In this document: positions 4,141 through 37,446 of the stretch, one piece after another
Layout: the number at the start of each line of letters is the position of its first letter
Position numbering within the stretch: position 1 is the stretch's first letter
From: Phycisphaerales bacterium
GTDB taxonomy: Bacteria; Planctomycetota; Phycisphaerae; SM23-33
DNA length: 64,000 nucleotides
Direction of reading: 5' to 3'
Assembly (NCBI GenBank): GCA_018644725.1
Contig: JABGPZ010000044.1
Coordinates: 1 to 64,000 of the forward strand
Translations under genes and position numbers: made by a program
The notes under the pieces: model-generated
Told to the model about the DNA's origin: nothing
Databases searched by the model: none
Seen by the model: only the letters and a program-made list of their open reading frames with translations

Positions 4141-4455
4141 TGGACTGATAAATATGCGACAGGATTGTCTCAAGCGCCGGAGGCGCGAAAGTATTTAGCC
4201 GGGGGCGTAAGCCCCCGGAATGAGGCATAATAAAAAGAGCCCCGAAGGGGCGAAAGAAACACCCATCTTACATTTCTCTTTCGCCCTTCCAAGGCTTGTG
4301 GAATTCGCCGGGGCTTGCCTTAGTCTTTCCGGTCACAAGCTCCCTCCAAGAAACTAAGGCCCCGGCTTTTTGACACCCACTACCGAGGGCTTACGCCCCC
4401 GGCTAAACACTGTTGCCCTTTCAGGGCAAAGACTAGCCCAGCCCAACCGGGCGAG
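4141..4455 (-). repeat. composite palindromic intergenic repeat, copy A (inverted relative to copies B and C, with extra nested hairpin)
   Basis: Shares CTTTGCCCTGAAAGGGCAACAG / TTTAGCCGGGGGCGTAAGCCC / TTTCGCCCCTTCGGGGCTC / CCGGGGGCTTACGCCCCCGGCTAAA / GCGCTTGAGACAATCCTGTCGCATA modules (reverse complement) with copies at 31.3 and 37.2 kb. Confidence 0.85.
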
Positions 4456-5922: not shown

Positions 5923-6197
5923 TCGATTCTCCTTTCATTCCCCGCGGGCAACGCCGTGTCGCGCACGAGGCAATGAAGATGTATGTGCCAGTGTAAAGTA
6001 GAACGTAGCATTGTTCATATTTTTGCAGGAATGTCCCGAAAAAAATCGCCCGACGCGGAATTTTTTCCCGCCAGCGGCCTTGGTATCGATGTTGACTTTC
6101 ACAGTGAGTTGCTATACCCCTCGCACGACAACTACATAATAGATGAACCGAGGAGGGCGGAATTTGCGAAAATGGTGGAAAAAAGTGGAGAATGGGG

Positions 6198-6225
6198 TTG
6201 AAGCCGGCCGATAAAAGGATATAAT
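6198..6225 (+). promoter_or_regulatory. candidate sigma70 promoter for the PEP-CTERM transcription unit
   Basis: TTGAAG-N16-TATAAT. Confidence 0.45.
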
Positions 6226-6231
6226 GGGACT

Positions 6232-7353
6232 CGATCGAGCAACACCGCTCAGTGGCGCTCATCGACAACAACCGAGAATACAGGCCGAAACGCTTGTTCC
6301 TGTGAGATTTTCGAAGTCCAAAAAACTTCTGAAAAATTTCAGAAAACGGGAAAAAGGCCTTGACTCGACCCTCGAAATGGCTTACTTTACGTAGGCTCAG
6401 ACCGCGAGGTCTATAAAGACATCTATATAAAAACAAAAGGAAGAGGTTTTCTCCGGACTACTGCTCAACACTTCAGTCCATTCGAACCTCTTGAACCCGC
6501 GAAGATTTTCTGCGAACTCAGGCTGCAGCTCATTGCACCCGCCGCAACGAATCGAGCGGATCACAATTGAACAAGAGGATCCAGACCCCCTCGGCTATTT
6601 CTCCAGGCTCCCAGTGCGGATTCTGCGTGGGATGGTGCGAAATGGTTTGGAATTTCCTGGAATGCGAACCGCGACCTCACGAGGTCCGTCTATGCCCGCT
6701 TTGGGTGTGTCGGCCTGGAAGTGTCGCACGGTCTATCGCTCGACGCCTACCAATGTGGGTAGGGCGGGCAGTGGCCAGATTCGCAAACCGTGCCTTGGAA
6801 GACGACGAGAAGAGACCGTGCCTTGGACGACGAGGCTCAGAGAGACACCATTCAACCCTGGCTCAGCCCTGCAGCATGGGACGCTCAATCCCGCAGGACG
6901 CATTGACACAAAGGAGGACACGTCGAATAACGAACGCTCAGTTCGGACGCCGCATGCCAAGCCATAGCTCATGGCCGCCGCAGACCGGCATCCACCGTCT
7001 CGGGGTGTTGCGCCACTGGTGCGCAAGGGACCCGTCAGAGATGCGCCAAGAAGACCCGCATCGTACTGGCAAACGAAGAGATCTAGGCATCTACAGATGT
7101 ACACATGACTGGATTTGCATATAAGCCGCTTCCTCAGGCCACTCAAGCCTGATCCGGGACCTCACAAGGCGCAAGACCAATCGCATCCGTCGGGATGGGC
7201 CGCAAGGCCGAAGCGAATTGCAGGACTCACCTGCAGACAACACAACCAACAGGACTCACCTGTTGCCCCTGGCCGGATTGCTCCCCGGCACGAACAGGGA
7301 CGCTCAATGCTCAACAGAGGCCGGCACGACCGGTCCAACGAAAGGACGCTCAA
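6232..7353 (+). ncRNA. long structured non-coding 5' leader with CTCA-loop hairpins
   Basis: No convincing ORF; hairpins e.g. 6878-6892, 6931-6945, 6961-6975, 7134-7152, 7219-7235, 7247-7265, each with GCTC/CTCA in or at the edge of the loop. Confidence 0.5.
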
Positions 7354-8667
7354 ATGAAACGCTCTACTATGGGAACCCGAATTGCATTAGGAATTGTGAT
7401 GTTTGTCCTTGCCGCCAGCAGTGCGCTCGCGGCTGTTCCGACTCGAGAACTCTCCTCCGCCGTGCGCAATTGGTACATCTATTCTGATGGCGACGGGTCA
7501 CAACCGATTGACCCCTCCCAAACCAATGGGATTCTCGACGTGAACGACGACCCGTTCATCGCAACCTTCCAGAACCGCAAGACCACCGACGACAACGCCG
7601 TGGCCTTGACTTCGGCCTCGGCCAGCGCCAACACCACCTCGTTCTACATGAACTATTCCGGCGCGGAAAACCAAAGCTCGATCTACTACCTCACCCAGTC
7701 CAACGGCATCGGCGGCTACAACCGCGCACAGCACGAGCGCTATTCCGACGCCAACGGCCACGCGCTGGGTTGGACGACTCAGTCGGACGCGGGTGGATTT
7801 AACCTGATGACCGTTTCGGTCCACAATGGCGCGAACACCATCAACGATGGTGGCCAGACCTACAACGCCAACCCGCAGGTTGCTTCGGCAACGGGGATGA
7901 ACAACGCCTCCAAAGACCCCATCACCGGCGCACACTACACCCCCAAGTACAACGAGGCGACCGACGCCTACGACGAAGCTGTCAACTACTGGCGCCACAC
8001 CTACCAGGAAGCTGCCTGGGTCGCACAGGACAAGAACACCGAGAACGACAGCTACCGTGGTCTGAAGCTCTTTGATCGCGAAGGCCAAGCGTATGACGGC
8101 GCGCTCAACCCCGCCACCGGCGTCTACAGCGCACTTTACGAACAAGCTGGCACGACCGTGGGCGACTATGGCTACCAAGACACCTTCGTCAACGAAGGCC
8201 AAGGCGGCGTAATCAACGGCCTCGCCGGCACCGAGTTCGAATCGAGCGATCCCGACCGCGTTGAAAACCAACAGGTCATCCGGATCGACTTCGAAGACTT
8301 CAACATGACCTTTGCCGAAGCGACCAGCGAAGGCTTCCTCCTGGAAGAACAGTGGATGGGCGCCTATGACGCAGCTGACCTGGTCAACGCCGTTGACGAG
8401 TTGGTCTTCTACGACTACGGCGCAGCGGGCGATGCCGAAATGATCGCGCTTCTGCTGAACGTTGACCGCAGCCGCACCATGGCCGAAGGTCAAATCTACC
8501 TCGACAACAACGATAACGACATCTTCGACGCAGGCGACTACGCCTTTGCAGACAACCGCGTGTTCATCGCCGAGTTGGACCAGGTTCCTGAACCGGCCAC
8601 GATGAGCCTTCTGGCTCTGGGCGGGCTGGGAATGTTGCGCCGCCGCAAGGCACGCAAGAACGCCTAA
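7354..8667 (+). CDS. PEP-CTERM sorting-domain protein
   Basis: Signal peptide MKRSTMGTRIALGIVMFVLAASSALA and C-terminal VPEPATMSLLALGGLGMLRRRKARKNA; SD AAAGGA 7 nt before ATG. Confidence 0.9.
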   Translation: MKRSTMGTRIALGIVMFVLAASSALAAVPTRELSSAVRNWYIYSDGDGSQPIDPSQTNGILDVNDDPFIATFQNRKTTDDNAVALTSASASANTTSFYMNYSGAENQSSIYYLTQSNGIGGYNRAQHERYSDANGHALGWTTQSDAGGFNLMTVSVHNGANTINDGGQTYNANPQVASATGMNNASKDPITGAHYTPKYNEATDAYDEAVNYWRHTYQEAAWVAQDKNTENDSYRGLKLFDREGQAYDGALNPATGVYSALYEQAGTTVGDYGYQDTFVNEGQGGVINGLAGTEFESSDPDRVENQQVIRIDFEDFNMTFAEATSEGFLLEEQWMGAYDAADLVNAVDELVFYDYGAAGDAEMIALLLNVDRSRTMAEGQIYLDNNDNDIFDAGDYAFADNRVFIAELDQVPEPATMSLLALGGLGMLRRRKARKNA

Positions 8668-8691
8668 CCCCAACTGATGGATCGAAGATGA

Positions 8692-8715
8692 CCCGCCGGA
8701 GCAGAATCCGGCGGG
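8692..8715 (+). other. strong hairpin just after the PEP-CTERM stop codon, without a T-run
   Basis: CCCGCCGGA-GCAGAA-TCCGGCGGG perfect 9-bp stem. Confidence 0.6.
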
Positions 8716-9000
8716 GAGGGCGGACAACGACTGCCCAAAGAGAACCGACAGAACCCCTCCAGGCTGGTTGAGCCGGAGACCCCGATTGACAACTACAGAC
8801 GACCAGGCCGCCGGGGCAACGAATCTCCCGCCCTAGCGCTGCTCCCTGACGCGACAGACAACCACACCTCAGGTTGAGCTGCACGCCAGGGCGGGCAACC
8901 TTCGAGGACCCGACGGCCTGCGATGCGATGAATGCATCGGGAGACACGAGAGGCGCGAGAAACCGCCGCCTCTCCCAACATTCCCTTCGAGCGCGACACC

Positions 9001-9554
9001 GCGCTCAGGACCAACTATCCCAGAGAGCGCGGGCGCTCACAAAACGCGCCACACTATGCAGCACTCAGGAAAAACTATCCCAGAGAGCACAGAGCACCAT
9101 GAGCATGAATTTAGGGGGCCGGATTGAGCCCCGGCTCCCCCTAAATTCCCCCAAGAGTGCCGAGCTTCAAACAACTATCCCAGAGAGCGCGGGCGCGTCC
9201 CGCGAGTATTTGAGCAATGAAGAAGAGTGGATTGAGCTCCACTCGACCCCAGGGCGCCTGAGAGACCGCCCGACGACAGAGCTGAGAGCCTGTCGGCCGC
9301 AGACGTGAGAACTCTGCGCCTCTCAAACATTTCGGGCGCGAATCAAACCGCGACCACGATACATCCCAACGCAAAATTTTCCCAGAGAGCGCGGGCGCGT
9401 CCCGCGAGCATTTGAGCAATGAAGAAGAGTGGATTGAGCTCCACTCAACCCCAGGGCGGAGGTGAGAGACCGCCCGCGACAGAGGTGAGAGCCTGTCGAA
9501 GGCCGCGAGCCTGAGAACTCGCGCCACCATACCGCAGGGCCTGAGAATCCTGCG
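9001..9554 (+). ncRNA. array of TGAG-loop hairpins and internal direct repeats (3' UTR or independent ncRNA)
   Basis: At least nine hairpins with TGAG in the loop plus 66-nt direct repeat 9179-9244 / 9381-9446 (1 mismatch). Confidence 0.6.
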
Positions 9555-9625
9555 ATCAGACTGAACTTCAAGGTTCCGTCTGACGAGAGAGCCCGTGGCC
9601 TGCTGAACGCAGGTCGCTAACGAAG

Positions 9626-9663
9626 AACCCCACCGGATTAGCCTGACATCGGTGGGGTTTTTC
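9626..9663 (+). terminator. rho-independent terminator ending the PEP-CTERM/hairpin-array transcript
   Basis: AACCCCACCG...CGGTGGGGTTTTT. Confidence 0.85.
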
Positions 9664-9740
9664 TATGCGCACACGGAATGGGGGACTCTTGTGGTTTGCT
9701 GCTGGCTGCGGCGTCGGCCTATGCGCACACGGAATGGGGG
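9663..9740. repeat. 22-bp perfect direct repeat pair, 56-bp offset
   Basis: CTATGCGCACACGGAATGGGGG at 9663-9684 and 9719-9740. Confidence 0.85.
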
Positions 9741-9866
9741 TCCGAGGAGAGAGGAGAGAGCGGAAGGGGAGATCGTGGTGTTGTGAGGGATTTTGTGTGT
9801 TTTATGTGGGATTGATATGATATGATGATCAAGGATACCAATCACCCGAAAGGAAGTTCTCTCTCC

Positions 9867-31299: not shown

Positions 31300-31534
31300 A
31301 TTGGGCTTGTCTTTGCCCTGAAAGGGCAACAGGATTTAGCCGGGGGCGTGAGCCCCCGGTAGTGGTACCCCAAAAATAAGCCCTGAAAGGGCGAAAGAGG
31401 AATGTAGGATGGCCGCTTCTTTCGCCCCTTCGGGGCTCTTTTCATTATCCCGCATTCCGGGGGCTTACGCCCCCGGCTAAATCCTTTCGCACCTTCGGCG
31501 CTCGAACCAACCTTGTCGCATAATCAGTCCACTT
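31300..31534 (+). repeat. composite palindromic intergenic repeat, copy B
   Basis: CTTTGCCCTGAAAGGGCAACAGGATTTAGCCGGGGGCGTGAGCCCCCGG ... TTTCGCCCCTTCGGGGCTC ... CCGGGGGCTTACGCCCCCGGCTAAATCC. Confidence 0.9.
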
Positions 31535-37199: not shown

Positions 37200-37446
37200 A
37201 CCCGGTTGGATCGGGTTGCCTTTGCCCTGAAAGGGCAACAGGATTTAGCCGGGGGCGTAAGCCCCCGGTGGATGATCATTAGAATCTGAGCCCTGAAAGG
37301 GCGAAAGAAGAATGAAGGAGAGGTGTTTCTTTCGCCCCTTCGGGGCTCTTTTCTTTTTTTCCGCATTCCGGGGGCTTACGCCCCCGGCTAAACCCTTTCG
37401 CGCCTTCGGCGCTTGAGACAATCCTGTCGCATAATTATCAGTTCAC
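37200..37446 (+). repeat. composite palindromic intergenic repeat, copy C
   Basis: Same modules and order as copy B; ends GCGCTTGAGACAATCCTGTCGCATAATTATCAGTTCAC. Confidence 0.9.

Follow-up and report, generated by a model that had tools for sequence, protein, structure and literature searches.

A candidate GCUCR leader element on the mRNA of an exported PEP-CTERM protein in Phycisphaerae, with complementary 3′ hairpin loops in a few species

Single-gene PEP-CTERM operons of Proteobacteria share a cis-element in their long upstream non-coding regions (Haft 2006, PMC1569441), the element of the PrsK/PrsR sigma-54 system being a site in DNA that combines a sigma-54 promoter (−24 GG/−12 GC) with an upstream 17-nt motif, and that study left both the upstream regions outside the sigma-54 class and the control elements outside Proteobacteria to be explained (PMC1569441). 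The Phycisphaerales locus described here likewise has a shared cis-element in a long non-coding region upstream of a PEP-CTERM gene, but with sigma-70-like promoters and with the element inside the transcript. Mechanistically, the nearest analogue would be the icaR mRNA of Staphylococcus aureus, in which a single 3′ UTR motif (UCCCCUG) pairs with the Shine–Dalgarno sequence (SD) of the same mRNA and translation control has been proposed (PMC3868564); the PEP-CTERM upstream regions (PMC1569441) would be the nearest biological problem. As in icaR, the 3′ UTR here carries a motif complementary to its own ribosome binding site region, the candidate partners being the GCTCA at 7348, which lies between SD and AUG, and the eight TGAGC copies downstream of the gene, but many copies of a 5-nt motif occur on both sides, the sequence is unrelated and the leader motif is common to other genes. 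Multi-site leader control is exerted by CsrA/RsmA and TRAP, whose motifs are GGA and GAG/UAG, respectively; our leader resembles theirs in its several short single-stranded motif copies, some over the SD, but the repeated motif differs, and GGA in hairpin loops is not its repeated core. The large ornate RNAs GOLLD, ROOL and OLE (PMC12286853) are, like this one, large structured bacterial RNAs, whereas in the present unit, an mRNA with no Rfam match, it is a motif that is conserved and not the global fold.

The window, that is, the whole 64,000-nt stretch analyzed, lies on contig C100 of a genome (G000) of 2.54 Mb in 112 contigs. A sequence-only reading had placed a promoter, a PEP-CTERM coding sequence and a terminator within it, and all three are borne out (Table 1), as is its estimate that ~60% of the transcript is non-coding (~62% of 6232–9663). 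The encoded protein matches PF07589 at residues 410–432 (28.5 bits, cut-off 20.7) and also TIGR02595, and has the PEP motif, transmembrane stretch and basic tail of PEP-CTERM proteins, and the ortholog alignment begins at the identical methionine. Neither flank of the gene holds a credible coding sequence, as had been claimed, and the leader contains no conserved upstream ORF, its ORFs being without protein similarity across four species. No viral contigs encoding the protein were found. The whole unit, from promoter to terminator, is best explained as a single mRNA that encodes an exported PEP-CTERM protein. The alternative promoter would give a leader of ~960 nt, near the 890–945 nt seen in relatives, and its GCTCA-at-+1 spacing likewise fits relatives.

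Against the Rfam 15 covariance models, positions 6100–9750 gave nothing at gathering threshold and noise alone at E ≤ 5; the orthologous loci and other leaders were also negative, except for one tRNA and one SRP RNA. Elsewhere in the window, six intergenic Acido-Lenti-1 RNAs (RF01687) form three divergent pairs ~100–165 nt apart, which suggests that the unit of this RNA is the pair and not the single motif. Separately, contig C11 of genome G019 (L178) carries a repeated GATAGCTCAATTGGTAGAGCG in an array of tRNA-like fragments, apparently partial tRNA gene copies.

Table 1 Features of the PEP-CTERM unit and Acido-Lenti-1 RNAs in the window
Feature	Position	Strand	Basis or remark
Promoter TTGAAG-N16-TATAAT	6198..6225	+	Top-scoring promoter-like site in 1.35 kb upstream; GCTCR 0 in 230 nt before, 3 in 230 nt after
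Alternative promoter TTGACT-N17-TACTTT	6360..6388	+	GCTCA 6395 comes 6 nt later; match conditioned on that spacing
Untranslated leader	6232..7353	+	~1.1 kb; 13 GCTCA, 0 TGAGC
Tandem copies of (C/T)GCCTTGG...GACGACGAG element	6787..6842	+	Sequence; similar element in orthologs
Leader hairpin cgaac-GCTCA-gttcg, GCTCA in loop	6931..6945	+	Hairpin example
Leader hairpins with CTCA in loop	7134-7152, 7219-7235, 7247-7265	+	Further examples
Ribosome binding site AAGGA-CGCTCA-AATG-AAACGCTCT	7343..7365	+	GCTCA between SD and AUG, repeated right after AUG; several orthologs likewise
CDS, 437 aa, signal peptide and C-terminal PEP-CTERM	7354..8667	+	ATG 7354, TAA 8667
Structured 3′ untranslated region	8668..9625	+	~0.96 kb; TGAGC (8) and TGAGA (7) lie mainly in hairpin loops
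Four copies of AACTATCCCAGAGAGCGCGGGCG opening 3′ modules	9012..9398	+	Repeats
Three hairpins with TTGAGC in loop	9118-9135, 9225-9244, 9427-9446 (span 9118..9446)	+	Three hairpins
93 nt duplication	9173-9265 / 9375-9467	+	Repeats
Seven paralogous hairpins, invariant TGAGA loop, compensated stems	9252..9554 (9252, 9274, 9298, 9454, 9477, 9504, 9533)	+	Sequence/fold comparison
Intrinsic terminator, strong	9622..9663 (about)	+	Sequence
Acido-Lenti-1 pair 1	4173-4218 / 4383-4428	- / +	Rfam RF01687
Acido-Lenti-1 pair 2	31314-31359 / 31457-31502	- / +	Rfam RF01687
Acido-Lenti-1 pair 3	37223-37268 / 37368-37413	- / +	Rfam RF01687

The main feature of the leader, overlooked in the earlier reading, is an array of GCTCA and not a fold. 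Its copies (at 6247, 6257, 6395, 6463, 6528, 6835, 6861, 6883, 6936, 6967, 7302, 7309 and 7348) number 13 versus 1.8 expected (dinucleotide shuffles, p ≤ 3e-4), and the 3′ region holds two GCTCA and eight TGAGC, the latter versus 2.0 expected (p = 7e-4, or 0.0027 once an internal duplication is removed); in the remainder of the window, GCTCA and TGAGC occur at 0.73 and 0.91 per kb. GCTCA also ranks first at this locus in an unbiased 5-mer scan for upstream-enriched words with a downstream-enriched reverse complement. A chance origin of the GCTCA/TGAGC enrichment is excluded. Structurally, the leader folds weakly (z = −1.9), and CTCA lies in hairpin loops in 8 of 20 cases (p ~ 0.005).

Evolutionarily, the named orthologs are Planctomycetota/Phycisphaerae MAGs with ~26–34% identity to the window protein, and most of them, together with other exported or PEP-CTERM genes, carry GCTC[A/G] leader arrays across two families of one order of Phycisphaerae. 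The long leaders of G024, G017 and G012 (890–945 nt) contain 11–15 GCTCA and no TGAGC, and orthologs with short leaders (~200–350 nt) mostly still have 3–6 copies of GCTCA or GCTCG, which often lie in the interval from SD to AUG as well as just past the AUG. Within 300 nt of the start, 3–6 GCTCA are found in most orthologs (p ≤ 0.008 in 11 of 16; p = 0.044 in the window), and in four species GCTCA is the top upstream 5-mer, while its reverse complement does not occur there at all. In a pool of 12 leaders, GCTCA was counted 83 times versus 7.7 expected and GCTC 138 times versus 33, though pooled p values overstate the evidence because the ortholog loci are not phylogenetically independent; GAGC was the most depleted tetramer (10 versus 31 expected), the top enriched tetramers were GCTC and CTCA, and AGGA was moderately enriched, SDs included. 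The pooled consensus is near (A)(T)GCTC(A/G), the base after GCTC being A in 61%, G in 23% and T in 11%, and is unspecific beyond that. The leaders can otherwise barely be aligned between species, so what persists is the GCTCR motif. Rather than a large conserved fold, the leader is an array of motif copies with free divergence outside GCUCR, and its GCTCA copies show hairpin-loop enrichment in some species but not in all. As a genome-wide habit, the SD-GCTCA-ATG arrangement showed no clear excess in motif-bearing genomes versus other relatives. A second conserved leader element, (C/T)GCCTTGG(T/A)AGGAG or GACGACGAG, adjoins the SD in short-leader orthologs and lies ~600 nt upstream in long-leader ones.

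Beyond the orthologs, GCTCA was rejected as a mark of every PEP-CTERM gene in G000, where it precedes only a minority of the 26. The same genome has GCTCA leaders before a trypsin-like PEP-CTERM protease gene (C49), a sigma-54 activator without receiver domain (C18 minus strand, L051; GCTCA-rich) and a 27-codon signal-peptide-like ORF (C9 minus strand, L035; ~1655–1738 of the reverse complement), and in G024 a GCTCR leader is followed by a similar 33-codon mini-ORF (C159, L152). These tiny ORFs encode scarcely more than a signal peptide. Through the C18 activator, the leader regulon may be linked with the sigma-54 control already known for PEP-CTERM genes. The 3′ UGAGC module was absent from the non-orthologous leaders checked.

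Downstream of the gene, 8668–9625 has a folding energy of −396 kcal/mol, far better than that of 20 shuffles (z = −8.1), and all 15 of its TGAG are TGAGC (8) or TGAGA (7), with 11 of the 15 in hairpin loops on stems of at least 4 pairs versus a 14.5% background (p ~ 5e-7). The short hairpins with related loop cores claimed for both flanks thus stand for the 3′ region and are weaker for the leader. Among the paralogous UGAGA hairpins, three of six stem positions each show three different Watson–Crick pair types, and this internal compensatory change supports real hairpins presenting that loop. Their seven loops match only CUCA (4 nt) in the leader, from which TCTCA is absent. A reading of these hairpins as tRNA-Leu(GAG) anticodon-arm mimics was dropped because loops of 8–10 nt do not fit. 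Across species, complementary 3′ UGAGC is enriched in three of the four long-leader species (with internal duplications removed, p 0.003 in G000, 0.006 in G024 and 0.01 in G017), with TGAGC partly in loops in G017 and G024; G012 has 12 leader sites, a short 3′ UTR and a single TGAGC, and short-leader orthologs show no 3′ enrichment. The strongly folded 3′ module is present in few species only, and leader and 3′ site numbers are not significantly correlated across orthologs (rho 0.24, p 0.37). On contig C35 of G012 (L041), an intergenic 21-nt tandem repeat holds about nine TGAGC in 210 nt, possibly a multivalent UGAGC RNA.

Could pairing within the mRNA be the primary function, a 5′–3′ kissing-loop network closing the molecule for stability or autorepression with no need of a trans factor? 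The exact reverse-complement motifs at both ends, bounded by promoter and terminator, the UGAG displayed in 3′ loops and the GAGC depletion of leaders would all fit, as would the UGAGC-hairpin duplications that G000 and G017 each carry internally within otherwise dissimilar 3′ UTRs. Yet conservation of GCUCR leaders extends to genes and species that have no 3′ UGAGC module, and covariation extending past the 5-nt core is absent, complementarity within species being no better than with permuted flanks (p 0.1–0.4); we therefore regard this explanation as unlikely, though it is the strongest of the alternatives. More doubtful still is that the 3′ region forms a small RNA, either separate or released by processing, that uses its UGAGC loops to target in trans the GCUCA leaders of its own gene, the C49 protease and others. 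Such an RNA would be in keeping with the very strong fold of the region, its end at the terminator and the existence of GCUCA-bearing targets, as well as with its lack of a sequence relative elsewhere in the genome (no second copy was found there, and the flanks are unrepeated), but among the species that have GCUCA leaders, just three show the enriched module.

Where the array begins and ends bears on the level at which it is read. At most of 18 loci, the best promoter-like site within 1.35 kb lies directly 5′ of the array, the best sites being sigma-70-like; GCTCR occurs 0–1 times in the 230 nt ahead of the site and usually 2–7 times in the 230 nt after it; at 6 of the 18, the first GCTCA falls 6–7 nt past the −10 box, at the expected +1 (binomial p ~ 1e-4). 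Arrays extend across SD, AUG and first codons, and the reverse complement is depleted in leaders. Array onset at the promoter together with the run across the start codon therefore favors recognition of RNA over DNA, and points to a motif acting in RNA. A search ignorant of the protein, for a promoter immediately followed by GCTCA, yielded 28 readable loci, six leading to PEP-CTERM ORFs within 1.5 kb (two of them in G036, from another family of the same order), three more belonging to the ortholog family with the C-terminus beyond 1.5 kb, and others encoding exported proteins; applied to the antisense upstream side, the PEP-CTERM regex matched once, spuriously, at a site without the remaining PEP-CTERM architecture. 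Because it is independent, this search weighs more than the pooled statistics.

The same boundaries also suit, to a degree, a transcription-elongation signal, a boxA/boxC-like Nus-factor site that would shield the long untranslated transcript from Rho, given that the array is restricted to untranslated transcript from +1 and that boxA contains GCUC. We consider it improbable, as boxA goes on with UUUA, missing from the motif (the consensus GCUCUUUA is not matched), and the array enters codons, while in the equally untranslated 3′ region it is replaced and not continued. Least probable is a DNA-level motif, either a set of transcription factor sites or inverted subterminal repeats of the transposon type. 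The opposite orientations that the motif takes on the two sides would suit it, but it fits poorly with an array that begins at the transcription start instead of ahead of the promoter and that runs through the start codon, and with flanks that show no transposase, terminal repeats or repetition in the genome.

From a functional perspective, the GCUCA leader motif marking exported-protein genes of related species looks like an undescribed RNA control element; our literature search, limited to open papers, found no published description of it. We favor, at roughly even odds, a post-transcriptional tag array with a trans partner, supplemented by 5′–3′ loop pairing in long-leader species. Single-stranded leader GCUCA (core GCUCR) would then be a tag shared by exported and PEP-CTERM genes in this order of Phycisphaerae, and a putative trans partner, either an RNA-binding protein or a small RNA with UGAGC, would bind the sites cooperatively and set translation initiation and mRNA life-time. 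The partner is proposed as the common function because leader arrays are conserved even where a 3′ complement is missing, and its role in initiation and life-time because some GCUCA sites occupy the ribosome binding site. Loop pairing is proposed as an added layer because exact complements occur in the 3′ hairpin loops of three long-leader species: in G000 and the two others, the long 3′ UTR of the same mRNA presents UGAGC/UGAG in loops that may pair with leader GCUCA (5–6 bp, kissing or loop-linear), closing the mRNA 5′ to 3′ and either competing with the trans partner or masking or protecting the ribosome binding site. The earlier proposal that the PEP-CTERM gene lies within a large cis-regulatory RNA is supported by the non-coding flanks between promoter and terminator, the empty Rfam result and a leader motif common to orthologs and other exported-protein genes; its variants, a scaffold RNA or two ncRNAs, gained no specific support.

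More broadly, the observations may define a new class of bacterial mRNA element, a tentative claim to which we give somewhat less than even odds: tandem GCUCR leaders running from +1 over the start codon would delimit a post-transcriptional regulon of exported and PEP-CTERM proteins in Phycisphaerae, and some members would also have, in the 3′ UTR, complementary hairpins with UGAG loops, whose multivalent pairing closes the mRNA. For the PEP-CTERM genes of one lineage, the motif offers a concrete, countable control-element candidate that is visible from sequence alone, and if the 5′–3′ pairing is true, it would be a many-site form of a mechanism known in bacteria from a single-site example.
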